A stretch of 64,000 bases of DNA, from assembly GCF_022347785.1 (NCBI RefSeq), contig NZ_JAKRGA010000003.1:310001-374000 (forward strand), written 5' to 3'. The number at the start of each line of letters is the position of its first letter. Positions within the stretch are counted from its first letter, which is position 1. Source of the DNA: Psychrobium sp. MM17-31 (GTDB lineage: Bacteria; Pseudomonadota; Gammaproteobacteria; Enterobacterales; Psychrobiaceae). The notes under the pieces were generated by a model. The model saw nothing but the letters and a program-made list of their open reading frames with translations. It searched no databases and had not been told where the DNA came from. Made by a program: the position numbers and the translations under genes. Below, piece by piece: positions 23,913 to 36,225 of this stretch.

Positions 23913-26900
23913 CTAATGCTTAAGTCGCTTCATCAGCTTTTCGACTTCTTTTATTTGCGACTCATCGCCTGACTGCTTAACTTGCTCCAGCATATCGCGG
24001 GCGCTATCTTCGTCATCAATTTCCAAATAAGCACGTGCTAAGTCGAGTTTTTTCGATGCGCCGTTTGGATCATCATCAACATCGATGCCACCGGTTTCTG
24101 GCAACATTTCAGGAAACTCATCAAGACCAATATCTAAATCAACGTTTTGATACGGCTCAGCTTCTTGCTCGTTCATCGCCGACTCATCAAGCAACTTATC
24201 GATGTCGATAAAACTATTTTCTTGCTCGAACTTAGGAAGTTGTTCACTTAATTGCTCTTCAGCATCGAGCAAATCAACCGCTGGTTCCTTGATATCATCG
24301 AGCTGAGCTACGCTATCAGCTAACGTACTGTTTACCGGTGCTGCCACCGACTCTTGCGTTGACGGTTCAATCACAGCTTCTTCATCAAACTCGGCCATCG
24401 ATTGTGTTAGATCTGCGTCATCTAACTCTATGGCGTCGCTATTAATAAACTCATCAAGCTCAACTGCCGCTTGCGCAGTTTGTGGCTCAGCTGATGTATC
24501 AAGCATGCTGTCTAACGCATCAACGAGATGTTGTGCTTCTTGGCTTGGTGCAAGTTCTTGCGGTTGCTCTATGGCCAACTCAGGCGTTGGTTCACTCGAT
24601 GCTACTGGCTCGATAAAGTCATCAAGCGATTCGAGCGCTTGTGCTAAGTTTTGCTGCTCGGCATCACTCAACCCACTATTACTTTCGGCGGAATCAGTTA
24701 CTTGTGCAGTTTGTTCGCTAAAAAAATCTTCCTCAGTAGCATCTTCAGTCATCAGATAAGGCTCATCTACCGTATCTAATTGTGACAACTGCTCAAGAGT
24801 ACTGATTGGTCTGTCATCTTGTTCTGGGGCAGCTAAAGAATCAGTTTCAGTTAGTAGTTCATCTAGCCCCTCTGGCGCAACAACCTCTTCTTCAACTTCA
24901 AGTGTTAACGGCTCAATATCATCTTCTGGCAGTTCAAGATCGGGTTGTGACGCACCACCAAGCAGTGAATCAATGTCTTCGACATCTGAAACCGTGCCAG
25001 TTGACTCCGCCGACGTATCAACCGTCTCTTGTGAAACAAGCTCGTCTGTTTCGGCTAAACTCTCTGTTTCCGAAAGCAGTGCATCAATATCATCAACGGC
25101 AACATCAGCTGCTGGTTCTACAGCATCTTCTTCAACCAATTCGTCAGTTTCCGCTAAACTCTCTGTTTCCAAAAGCAGTGCGTCAATATCATCAACTGCA
25201 ACATCAGCCGCTGGTTCAACTGCATCTTCTTCAACAAGTTCATCGGTTTCTGCTAGCAGTGCATCGATATCATCAACTGCAACATCGGCTGCTGGTTCTA
25301 CAGTATCTTCGTCAACCAATTCGTCAGTTTCAGCTAAACTCTCTGTTTCCAAAAGAAGGGCATCAATATCATCAACAGCAACATCGGCCGCTGCTTCAAC
25401 TGCATCTTCTTCAACAAGTTCATCGGTTTCTGCTAAACTCTCCGTTTCCAAAAGAAGTGCATCGATATCATCAACTGCAACATCGGCTGCTGGTTCTACA
25501 GTATCTTCTTCAACCAATTCGTCAGTTTCCGCAAGAAGAGCGTCAATGTCATCAACCGCAACATCGGCTGCTGGTTCTGTAGCATCTTCTTCAACCAATT
25601 CGTCAGTTTCCGCAAGAAGAGCGTCAATGTCATCCACTTCAACCGGTGCATTAGCTTCATCTAGCAATGCATCAATGTCATCCACTTCAACCGGCGCGTT
25701 GGCTTCGTCTAGCAATGCATCAATATCATCCGCTTCAACTGGCGCGTTGGCTTCATCTAGCAACGCATCAATATCATCTGCTTCAACTGGCGCGTTGGCT
25801 TCGTCTAGCAATGCATCAATATCGTCAGCGTCTACAGGTGCGTTAGCTTCGTCTAGCAATGCATCAATATCATCTGCTTCAACTGGCGTGTTGGCTTCAT
25901 CTAGCAGAGCGTCAATGTCGTCTGCGTCAACAGGTGCGTTAGCCTCGTCTAACAAGGCATCAATATCATCTGCTTCAACTGGCGCGTTGGCTTCATCTAG
26001 CAACGCATCAATATCATCTGCTTCAACTGGCGCGTTGGCTTCATCTAGCAGAGCGTCAATGTCATCTGCGTCAACAGGTGCGTTAGCCTCGTCTAACAAG
26101 GCATCAATATCATCCGCTGCAACTGCATCATTGGCTTCATCCAACAGCGCATCGATATCATCGTCACTTGTTAATTCGTCGGCATCATCAACTTCTAATT
26201 CGTCGGCTTGGGCCAATAACGCATCGATGTCATCGGTGCTAACAATTTCATCAGAAAGATCAGGATCACCTTGTGCCTCTTCCTCTTCAAGCTCATCAGC
26301 TTGTGCCAAAAGCGCTTCTAAATCGTCTTGAGCTAAAATCCCCTCATCTTCTTTAGGAGCTTCTTCTTGGGTAACCTCTTCTTCTGGCTCTGGTAATTCA
26401 GAACTGTCATCTAGTTGAATTTCATCGAGATCAGATGGCACTAATAATTCATCATCTTCATCGCCATCTGACAACAGATCATCATCAAGATCTGGTAAAT
26501 CATCAATGTCACTGATTTCTAAAAGATCATCGTCTTCATCACTGATCAACAGATCGTCATCAGCATCTACTTCCAACAAGTCATCTTCGGTTTCGAGATC
26601 AGGAACCGCATTATCATCTGCTGCAGTTTTCGCTTCTGTTGGCTCTTCAGGCGCTGGCTTATGACGACGTACTAACCAAAAGAAAACACCCGCCATAATA
26701 CCAGTGGATAGTAAGCTGAAAATGGTGCCGATAACCCAACCGTTGTTAAGTAGCGAATCGTGCTCCATATCTTTCGCAAGTTGAATTTCTGCTAATTCGT
26801 CTTTCAACTCTGCTAATTCTTCGTGAGCTTGCAGATCTAAAGCTTCTTGCGTCTGCATTTCTGCAAGCTTGTCATCAAGAGCCTTAATTTGCTCTTTTAA

Positions 26901-33256: not shown

Positions 33257-35359
33257 ATGATATACTACGCGATATTTTGTATCACGAGTATTAAACATTT
33301 GTTTAAACAGCAAAAAAATTGTCTTTCAGCCGCTAAATTAAGCTGGAATGACAACGGAGAGCCGACCTCTGTTGAATTTAACGACATCTATTTCAACACC
33401 GCCGATGGCCTTGATGAAACGACTTATGTTTTTATTGAGCAAAACAAACTTCACGAGCGCTGGTTACAAACCGACAGTGCCAGTTATGTCATTGCCGAAA
33501 CAGGCTTTGGTAGTGGCTTAAACTTTCTGGTGACGTGGCAGCATTTCAAGCATTTTAGAGCGCACAACCCAAACCACCCGTTAAAGCGCTTATACTTTAT
33601 TAGTTTTGAAAAATTTCCGCTAACACAGGGCGACTTAATCAAGTCACACCAGCGTTGGACTTCTCTATCCAAGCAAGCAACTGCACTGCAAAGTCAATAT
33701 CCACCAGTATTAGCAGGTTGCCATCGTATGCCCTTCGCTTTAGATGACGACAATAGTCAGATCATTCTCGATTTGTGGTTCGGAGACATCAAAGACACCA
33801 TCACCCAAGTTTCAACGCCGCCAGAGGGCATTGTCGATTCGTGGTACCTCGATGGCTTTGCGCCTAGCAAGAATCCCGAGATGTGGAACCAAAACCTCTA
33901 TAACAACATGGCGAAGCTGTCTAAACACAATGCGTCGATGGCCACATTTACCGCTGCTGGCGATGTCCGTCGCGGCTTGCAACAAACTGGTTTTGTGATC
34001 AAGAAAGCCAAGGGTTTTGGTAAAAAGCGTGAAATGATCACTGGGCTGTTTGAGCGCACCGACAAATACACCAATCACAATCCGTGGTTTTATCGCCAAG
34101 GAGTTACACAGTTCCCCCATAGTAATGAAGGCGCTTCAACACCATCGCGCATAACCATTGTCGGCGGCGGCGTTGCAAGTGCAACATTAGCCCTCGCCTT
34201 AGCAAAACGCGGTATCAGCAGTGAAGTATTGTGTAAAGATCAATCCTTAGCTTGCGGTGCGTCAGGTAATCGCCAAGGCGGTTTTTATCCGCTAATCAAT
34301 GGTCAGCACGATTTATTGTCTCAATTTTATGCGCCCGCGTTCTTGTATGCAGCCAATCGTTATCATGACATTATCCAACGCAACCCAGAGGTCGGTAAGC
34401 TATGCGGCGTACTGTCATTAGATCATGAAGAAAAACAGGCCAAAGCCCATAGTAAAGTAATTGACTCAGCAATCTTTCCCAAGGGGTTGGTAGAACAATT
34501 GACCGCCGGGCAAGCTAGCACATTGAGCGGTATCGCTATCGAGCATAACGCACTGCACTTTCCTACTGGCGGCTGGGTATCTCCAAAATCATTAACCAGT
34601 GAGCTGATTAAACTTGCTCAGCAGCATAGCGAGGTTGTAGTTCGCTATAACTGCCAAGTTGAATCGATAAACTTCGTCGAAGATAATTGGCAAGTGAATA
34701 TCACTGCTCAATCGCCACTTAAGGCTGACATCCTCGTGTTAGCTGCGGGCCATGAAATAGCCAACTTTGCACAATGTCAGCATTTGCCATTCTACGCGAC
34801 GGCCGGACAAGTCAGTCACCTCAATTCAACGGAGACTAGCGAGAAACTTAACAAAGTGCTTTGCTATCAAGGATATGTCACGCCAAGTCATAATGGTTCA
34901 CACAGTCTTGGGGCCAGCTTTAATCGCGATATTAGCGGCTATGACGTGAACGATATTGAGCATCAGCAAAACCTCGATAAGCTTGAAATCGATGTCCCAA
35001 CACTTTTCACAGAAATTAATAATAATGTGAATGGCGGCAAAGTTGGCGTGCGCTGTAGCGTCAAAGATCATCTGCCGATGGTGGGAAATGTGCCAGAATA
35101 CAATGCGACCAAAACGCTTTATAACGATTTATACAAAGGCAAACCCGCCCATCATTATGAAAATTCCCCCATCGAGTCGCAGCTATTCATGCTAGGCGGC
35201 TTAGGTTCTCGAGGTTTGTGTTCTGCCCCGCTGCTCGCAGAAGTATTAGCTTGTCAGCTAACTAACGAGCCAATGCCAATGTCACAATCGCTGTTAGATC
35301 AATTAAATCCAAACCGTTACTGGATAAAGCAACTAAAGAAACACAATGTCGACATTTAA
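33257..35359 (+). CDS. mnmC: Bifunctional tRNA wobble-uridine modification protein MnmC
   Basis: 700-residue two-domain enzyme that finishes mnm5s2U34 in tRNA. The N-terminal methyltransferase (DUF752; AETGFGSGLNFLVTWQ, DLWFGDIKDT, WYLDGFAPSKNPEMW) covers about residues 30-265. The C-terminal FAD oxidase (ITIVGGGVASATLALALAKRG, CGASGNRQGGFYPL, LGGLGSRGLCSAPLLAE) covers about 285-685. The start is uncertain: the ATG at 33257 lacks a ribosome site, and a TTG at 33299 (LFKQQ) is an alternative. Its last 41 codons fall in the first copy of a 163-bp tandem duplication. Confidence 0.95.
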   Translation: MIYYAIFCITSIKHLFKQQKNCLSAAKLSWNDNGEPTSVEFNDIYFNTADGLDETTYVFIEQNKLHERWLQTDSASYVIAETGFGSGLNFLVTWQHFKHFRAHNPNHPLKRLYFISFEKFPLTQGDLIKSHQRWTSLSKQATALQSQYPPVLAGCHRMPFALDDDNSQIILDLWFGDIKDTITQVSTPPEGIVDSWYLDGFAPSKNPEMWNQNLYNNMAKLSKHNASMATFTAAGDVRRGLQQTGFVIKKAKGFGKKREMITGLFERTDKYTNHNPWFYRQGVTQFPHSNEGASTPSRITIVGGGVASATLALALAKRGISSEVLCKDQSLACGASGNRQGGFYPLINGQHDLLSQFYAPAFLYAANRYHDIIQRNPEVGKLCGVLSLDHEEKQAKAHSKVIDSAIFPKGLVEQLTAGQASTLSGIAIEHNALHFPTGGWVSPKSLTSELIKLAQQHSEVVVRYNCQVESINFVEDNWQVNITAQSPLKADILVLAAGHEIANFAQCQHLPFYATAGQVSHLNSTETSEKLNKVLCYQGYVTPSHNGSHSLGASFNRDISGYDVNDIEHQQNLDKLEIDVPTLFTEINNNVNGGKVGVRCSVKDHLPMVGNVPEYNATKTLYNDLYKGKPAHHYENSPIESQLFMLGGLGSRGLCSAPLLAEVLACQLTNEPMPMSQSLLDQLNPNRYWIKQLKKHNVDI

Positions 35360-35562
35360 ATTACAACACTTTGCAATCGAGCAATCTGTCAATGCGATGG
35401 CAGAAGTATTAGCTTGTCAGCTCACCGATGAGCCAATGCCACTGCCACAATCGCTGTTAGATCAATTAAATCCAAACCGTTACTGGATCAAGCAATTTAA
35501 GAAACACAATGTCGACATTTAAATTACAACAATTTGCCATCAAACAATCCGTCAATGCGATG
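35237..35562 (+). repeat. Diverged 163-bp tandem duplication of the mnmC end / methyltransferase start
   Basis: Copy A (35237-35399) and copy B (35400-35562) both begin GCAGAAGTATTAGCTTGTCA and end GTCAATGCGATG. By hand alignment they differ at about 14 of 163 positions (roughly 91 percent identity), without gaps. Copy A holds the real mnmC 3' end plus a first methyltransferase start; copy B holds a second mnmC tail plus the functional methyltransferase start. Confidence 0.93.
35346..35522 (+). pseudogene. 58-codon chimeric ORF made by the tandem duplication
   Basis: Starting at the first methyltransferase ATG, the frame reads MSTFKLQHFAIEQSVNAM and then passes without a break into a MnmC-like tail (AEVLACQLTDEPMPLPQS ... 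KKHNVDI, stop at 35520-35522). So 18 residues of the methyltransferase N terminus are fused in frame to 40 residues of the MnmC C terminus. It has no complete domain and is probably a by-product of the duplication. It keeps translation coupled from mnmC to the real methyltransferase gene, because its end overlaps the start at 35509. Confidence 0.7.
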
Positions 35563-36225
35563 AAGGTATGCACTGACAGCCTGATTTTTGGTGCACTAAC
35601 GCCAGTTGAAAACGCGGAGCGTGTGCTTGATATTGGCGGCGGCACAGCAATTTTATCACTAATGGCAGCGCAGCGCGGCGCTAAACACATCACCTGTGTC
35701 GAATTAATGACTGCGAGTAGTCAAGAAGCTAGTGACAATGTGAACAACTCACCTTGGTCAGCCAGAATCTCGGTAATCAATTGCGATATAAATAATTTCG
35801 AAAGTGACGATACGTTTGATGTCATCATCTCCAACCCGCCGTTTTTTGATAATCACTTAAAAAATGACGATAACTTACGCAATACGGCGCGCCATACAGA
35901 TACCCTTAGCTACCAACAATTGTTAACAAAGGCTAAAGCACTCCTGAGGGATGATGGGGTTATTTCACTGCTCCTTCCCGTGCATACAATTGAAGCTATT
36001 AACGAGATATGCAATACACTTCAATTAGTTATAACAAAGCGCTGTGATTTAATTACTATCCGTGGTGGCGTTGCTAAAGTCACCGTATTGGAAATCCGTA
36101 ATCTTGCCAATGGCAGTTTCGCGCAAATGCCCGCTGTCAATACGATTACCGTCTATAATGCTCATCAGCAATATAGTGAACAAAGCGCTCGTTTATTAAA
36201 GAATTTTTTGTTACGGTTTGCCTAA
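35509..36225 (+). CDS. trmN: tRNA1(Val) adenine-37 N6-methyltransferase TrmN6-like (YfiC)
   Basis: 238-residue SAM-dependent methyltransferase. Early conserved segment FAIKQSVNAMKVCTDSLIFGA, SAM motif I VLDIGGGTAILSLMAAQRG (about residues 39-57), and the N6-adenine catalytic motif NPPFF in VIISNPPFFDN (about 107-111), as in TrmN6/YfiC, which modifies A37 of tRNA-Val. It is next to mnmC, another tRNA modification gene. Its start region is the second copy of the tandem duplication, so its ribosome site lies within duplicated mnmC sequence. Confidence 0.88.
   Translation: MSTFKLQQFAIKQSVNAMKVCTDSLIFGALTPVENAERVLDIGGGTAILSLMAAQRGAKHITCVELMTASSQEASDNVNNSPWSARISVINCDINNFESDDTFDVIISNPPFFDNHLKNDDNLRNTARHTDTLSYQQLLTKAKALLRDDGVISLLLPVHTIEAINEICNTLQLVITKRCDLITIRGGVAKVTVLEIRNLANGSFAQMPAVNTITVYNAHQQYSEQSARLLKNFLLRFA

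Follow-up and report, generated by a model that had tools for sequence, protein, structure and literature searches.

A diverged 163-bp tandem duplication at the mnmC/trmN6-like junction of Psychrobium sp. MM17-31 and the case for its mosaic origin

The mnmC/trmN6-like junction

The window analysed here is a 64,000-nucleotide stretch of a contig of Psychrobium sp. MM17-31. Near its middle two tRNA modification genes meet across a direct duplication. The features at this junction are as follows (a slash inside a sequence marks a join).

33257-35359, plus strand: mnmC, an open reading frame for the bifunctional tRNA mnm5s2U34 enzyme, 700 aa; NCBIfam NF002480, Pfam Methyltransf_30 and DAO
35237-35399, plus strand: copy A of the 163-bp unit; its mnmC tail is functional and its trmN6-like head (18 codons) redundant
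35346-35359, plus strand: 14-nt overlap ATGTCGACATTTAA in copy A, holding the mnmC stop and the start of a fusion ORF
35346-35522, plus strand: fusion ORF of 58 aa, in frame in translation, with an MnmC_Cterm match at residues 18-53
35399-35400, strand not applicable: junction between the copies, GCGATG/GCAGAAG, with 0 bp of microhomology with either flank
35400-35562, plus strand: copy B of the 163-bp unit; its mnmC tail is redundant and its head (18 codons) is that of the working trmN6-like gene
35509-35522, plus strand: 14-nt overlap ATGTCGACATTTAA in copy B, holding the fusion-ORF stop and the start of the working trmN6-like gene
35509-36225, plus strand: open reading frame for a putative trmN6-like tRNA methyltransferase, 238 aa; NF047853 TrmN, Pfam MTS

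MnmC is a clear member of its family, scoring 739.5 bits against NF002480, where the cut-off is 540. The 238-aa methyltransferase matches NF047853 TrmN strongly (171 bits, E 3e-50) but does not reach the curated cut-off of 350, so judging by sequence we call its product TrmN6-like.

The two copies adjoin in the same orientation and in register. They are identical at 149 of 163 positions (91.4%), with 14 substitutions and no indels, and a self-BLAST (E about 1e-62) agrees. An earlier note, made from the letters of the window, had described two adjoining copies at about 91% identity with about 14 differences and no gaps, and the count bears it out. A search of the whole 4.17-Mb genome finds this tandem structure only once. 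The unit takes in 41 codons at the mnmC end, stop included, and 18 codons at the start of the trmN6-like gene. Because it spans the gene junction, copy A carries an intact mnmC end and copy B an intact methyltransferase start, so neither gene has lost anything. The same note had assigned these two ends to the two copies in this way, and the two open reading frames confirm it. A second match to the MnmC tail falls in copy B.

The note did not mention the 58-codon fusion ORF. It is made of both redundant halves, an 18-aa trmN6-like head and a 40-aa MnmC tail joined at a codon boundary, and it starts in one 14-nt overlap and ends in the other. Since it links both overlaps, the hand-over of ribosomes between the genes is probably preserved, and the downstream gene probably remains translationally coupled to mnmC by way of this ORF. 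No RNA structure beyond that of shuffled sequences was found at either 14-nt overlap (z 0.1-0.3), and promoter matches within the 163-bp unit were at chance level, with no excess.

The locus in related genomes

The comparison set consisted of 10 genomes of the genus, the only genus of its family represented. The nearest relative, G007 (also L017), shares about 71% nucleotide identity at the locus; it is single-copy there, and its 14-nt overlap is identical. For G002, G004 and G008, mnmC and a trmN6-like gene are neighbours without an overlap, and a check of the ancestral state found a single copy in these three genomes as in G007. In G005 and G006 mnmC and the trmN6-like gene are on separate contigs, and outside the genus they are not adjacent among the order-wide matches inspected. 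The earlier note had called for such a comparison and had set against its own reading a pattern in which relatives all carry the two copies. That pattern is absent because the nearest relatives are single-copy.

G007 is equally distant from both copies, with 49 differences from A and 49 from B. Polarising the nucleotide sites on G007 leaves six that are informative, three for A and three for B, which is not decisive. Three amino-acid sites are informative in the same way (S/P, L/F, H/Q), and at all of them G007 matches the functional halves. A search for closer relatives among plasmids, genome contigs and viral contigs found none, and no donor lineage was found for either copy, the nearest relative being only about 71% identical.

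Divergence before or after the join?

Eight of the differences between the copies are synonymous and six non-synonymous, a synonymous-biased and conservative set, with dN/dS of 0.18 in the mnmC tail and 0.12 in the trmN6 head. As for their clustering, the longest identical run is 43 nt (P 0.17), and close pairs of differences have P 0.04. In codon simulations decay of the redundant halves gave 8-10 amino-acid differences and selection on both copies gave 3-6, against the 6 observed; under decay in place the probability of 6 or fewer is 0.03-0.17.

A second test scored the changes against profiles of about 31 MnmC tails and about 34 TrmN6-like heads, mostly from the same order. It takes mutation to be equal in the two copies and the fusion ORF to be free of stops. 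Had the redundant halves decayed, they should have lost about 22 log units, but they lost 3 (P 0.003-0.008 across the settings used), a result that rests on 14 changes and on profiles drawn largely from distant homologues. With two functional copies the observed loss or a smaller one occurs in 76-86% of runs. Joint closeness to the observation favours the model of two functional copies over decay by about 11 to 77 fold, and under that model an import, two strains joined in assembly and ongoing selection on both copies in place look alike. A decayed duplication requires redundant halves that are free of constraint at the protein level, and these halves do not show that pattern. The divergence fits selection in both copies. 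We offer the case as a worked example of how a tandem duplication that was born diverged, as a mosaic, can be told from one that decayed in place by profile-scored simulation of its redundant halves.

Other gene-end duplications

A scan for local repeats in 864 kb of the same genome, sampled in stretches, found three further diverged gene-end duplications besides tRNA arrays and repeats within genes.

L098:15732-16262 (contig C3, about 609.7-610.3 kb), minus strand: rplS 3' end with its intrinsic terminator, three tandem copies, period 184-192, 84-90% identical
L097:11480-11780 (contig C3, about 585.5-585.8 kb), minus strand: pnp 3' end with its terminator, two copies, 86% identical
L114:17403-17706 (C1 157403-157706), minus strand: 3' end of a GGDEF/EAL-type gene with the start of its neighbour, 82% identical

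Like the mnmC/trmN6 pair these are short and direct, take in the 3' end of a gene and are 82-90% identical among themselves. They differ in carrying gaps, stops or terminators, whereas the pair studied here is free of indels and lies across two genes that overlap. In the EAL-domain gene it is the redundant copy that has gaps and stop codons. At pnp the leftover tail, rather than the working gene, matches the G007 pnp 3' end at 5 of 5 differing bases in the last codons, which suggests that the working pnp end was replaced. Repeats of the rplS tail are found at the same place in G009 (97%) and G001 (79%), and each looks local.

Scans of G013, G063 and G002 gave non-coding or gene-end repeats in similar or greater number. 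Gene-end tandem duplications are not rare, since they occur in this genome, in controls and in relatives. They may arise by more than one process, and within the genus they appear to be neutral enough to persist. This matters for annotation, where they can give spurious small fusion ORFs, and it counsels caution in calling diverged repeats special. A search of the literature on repeat dynamics and on tyrT-type repeats found nothing useful. Of the other kinds of repeat, the window holds an in-gene array at 25018-26162 of related 48-, 81- and 99-bp repeats that are 75-90% alike, and six tRNA-Asp genes stand in tandem elsewhere in the genome (L088:19506 to L089:186).

A probable mosaic origin and its rivals

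We believe the mnmC/trmN6 duplication is a small, mostly ordinary recombination scar of a known kind. That it joins diverged mnmC-trmN6 versions from two related lineages seems to us somewhat better than an even bet. The genome would at some point have taken up, or carried for a short time as a tandem, another mnmC-trmN6 segment whose source was a related lineage differing by about 9% in its DNA; the import, its donor and its direction are what we infer. A non-homologous join would then have placed the mnmC tail of one version directly behind codon 18 of trmN6 in the other. This join could have been made directly at entry, by homology-facilitated illegitimate recombination, or through a deletion inside a tandem merodiploid. 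The leftover halves would be the ORF that runs from the mnmC stop overlap to the trmN6 start overlap. A pair that was diverged from the outset is expected to be more stable than an identical pair.

The earlier note had also proposed recombination with DNA of a related strain. The dN/dS values and the simulations support that origin, which is unproven, but the joining site it named, a short similarity between GAAGTA and GAAGGTA, has to be given up. The mnmC flank reads CTGCTC/GCAGAAGTATT, the trmN6 flank reads GCGATG/AAGGTATGC and the actual join is GCGATG/GCAGAAGTATT, with no base in common on either side. Pairing at GAAG would have removed GCA and given GCGATGAAGTATT, so the similarity is not the joining point; GCA-GAAG is retained after GCGATG.

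Events of this sort are documented. Merodiploids arise from transformation (PMC3784515) and partial duplications arise from incoming DNA (PMC3240628). They resemble the present case in having adjacent direct copies and intact genes, and in them foreign and resident sequence can stand side by side, but the documented cases are usually longer and fresh, while here only 163 bp are left. Homology-facilitated illegitimate recombination would be similar in joining foreign DNA by homology on one side and without it on the other. However, its illegitimate junctions usually show 3-10 bp of microhomology (PMC3240628); the junction here has none, which counts against a mosaic, and the homologous side is not visible. 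The genome has members of the ComEC and DprA families, but both also match in E. coli and are no proof of competence.

One rival explanation is an old local tandem duplication, by slippage or unequal exchange, whose copies began identical and diverged in place while the redundant halves were free to decay. We consider it unlikely, but it has arguments on its side. Duplications of this class, differing in age, are present elsewhere in the genome (rplS, pnp and the EAL-domain gene), and the gene-tail duplications elsewhere in the genus look local, as the rplS repeat of G009 does, which weighs against a mosaic. At 3 of the 3 amino-acid sites that the outgroup informs the deviant residue lies in the redundant half, as some later decay would have it, and one of these is an L to F change at a position where 26 of the 28 homologues scored have L. 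Against this, the amino-acid changes are too few and too conservative, and the redundant halves have neither an indel nor a stop, while the decayed EAL-gene junction duplication has gaps and stops at 82% identity. An identical start would also be hard to keep long enough. Identical 101-bp tandem repeats in E. coli are deleted at high frequency (PMC8378479), so it is harder to accept that a duplication that began identical lasted until its copies were 9% apart.

An assembler that joined, end to end, contig ends of co-present strains about 9% apart would produce a false tandem with the same pattern as a mosaic. It would account for the adjacency, the absent microhomology and the functional-looking divergence of both copies. 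We nevertheless judge it quite improbable, because the locus lies inside an 884-kb contig, the reported contamination is 0.04%, and the 864 kb scanned hold no comparable functional-looking duplication at 91%; the in-frame join would also be a one-in-three coincidence.

It is more doubtful still that a local duplication was kept with both copies under selection, for example with the 58-aa product serving as a coupling relay or a peptide. The in-frame fusion, the lack of a stop or indel and the retention of both overlaps speak for it. However, the fusion is absent from the relatives examined, RNA structure and promoter matches show no excess, and a relay does not explain why the MnmC tail sequence itself would be needed. 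We give very little credence to the stronger claim that selection keeps the fusion ORF as a translational relay from mnmC to the methyltransferase, a scar turned into part of the operon. An in-frame fusion is expected about 1 time in 3 by chance.
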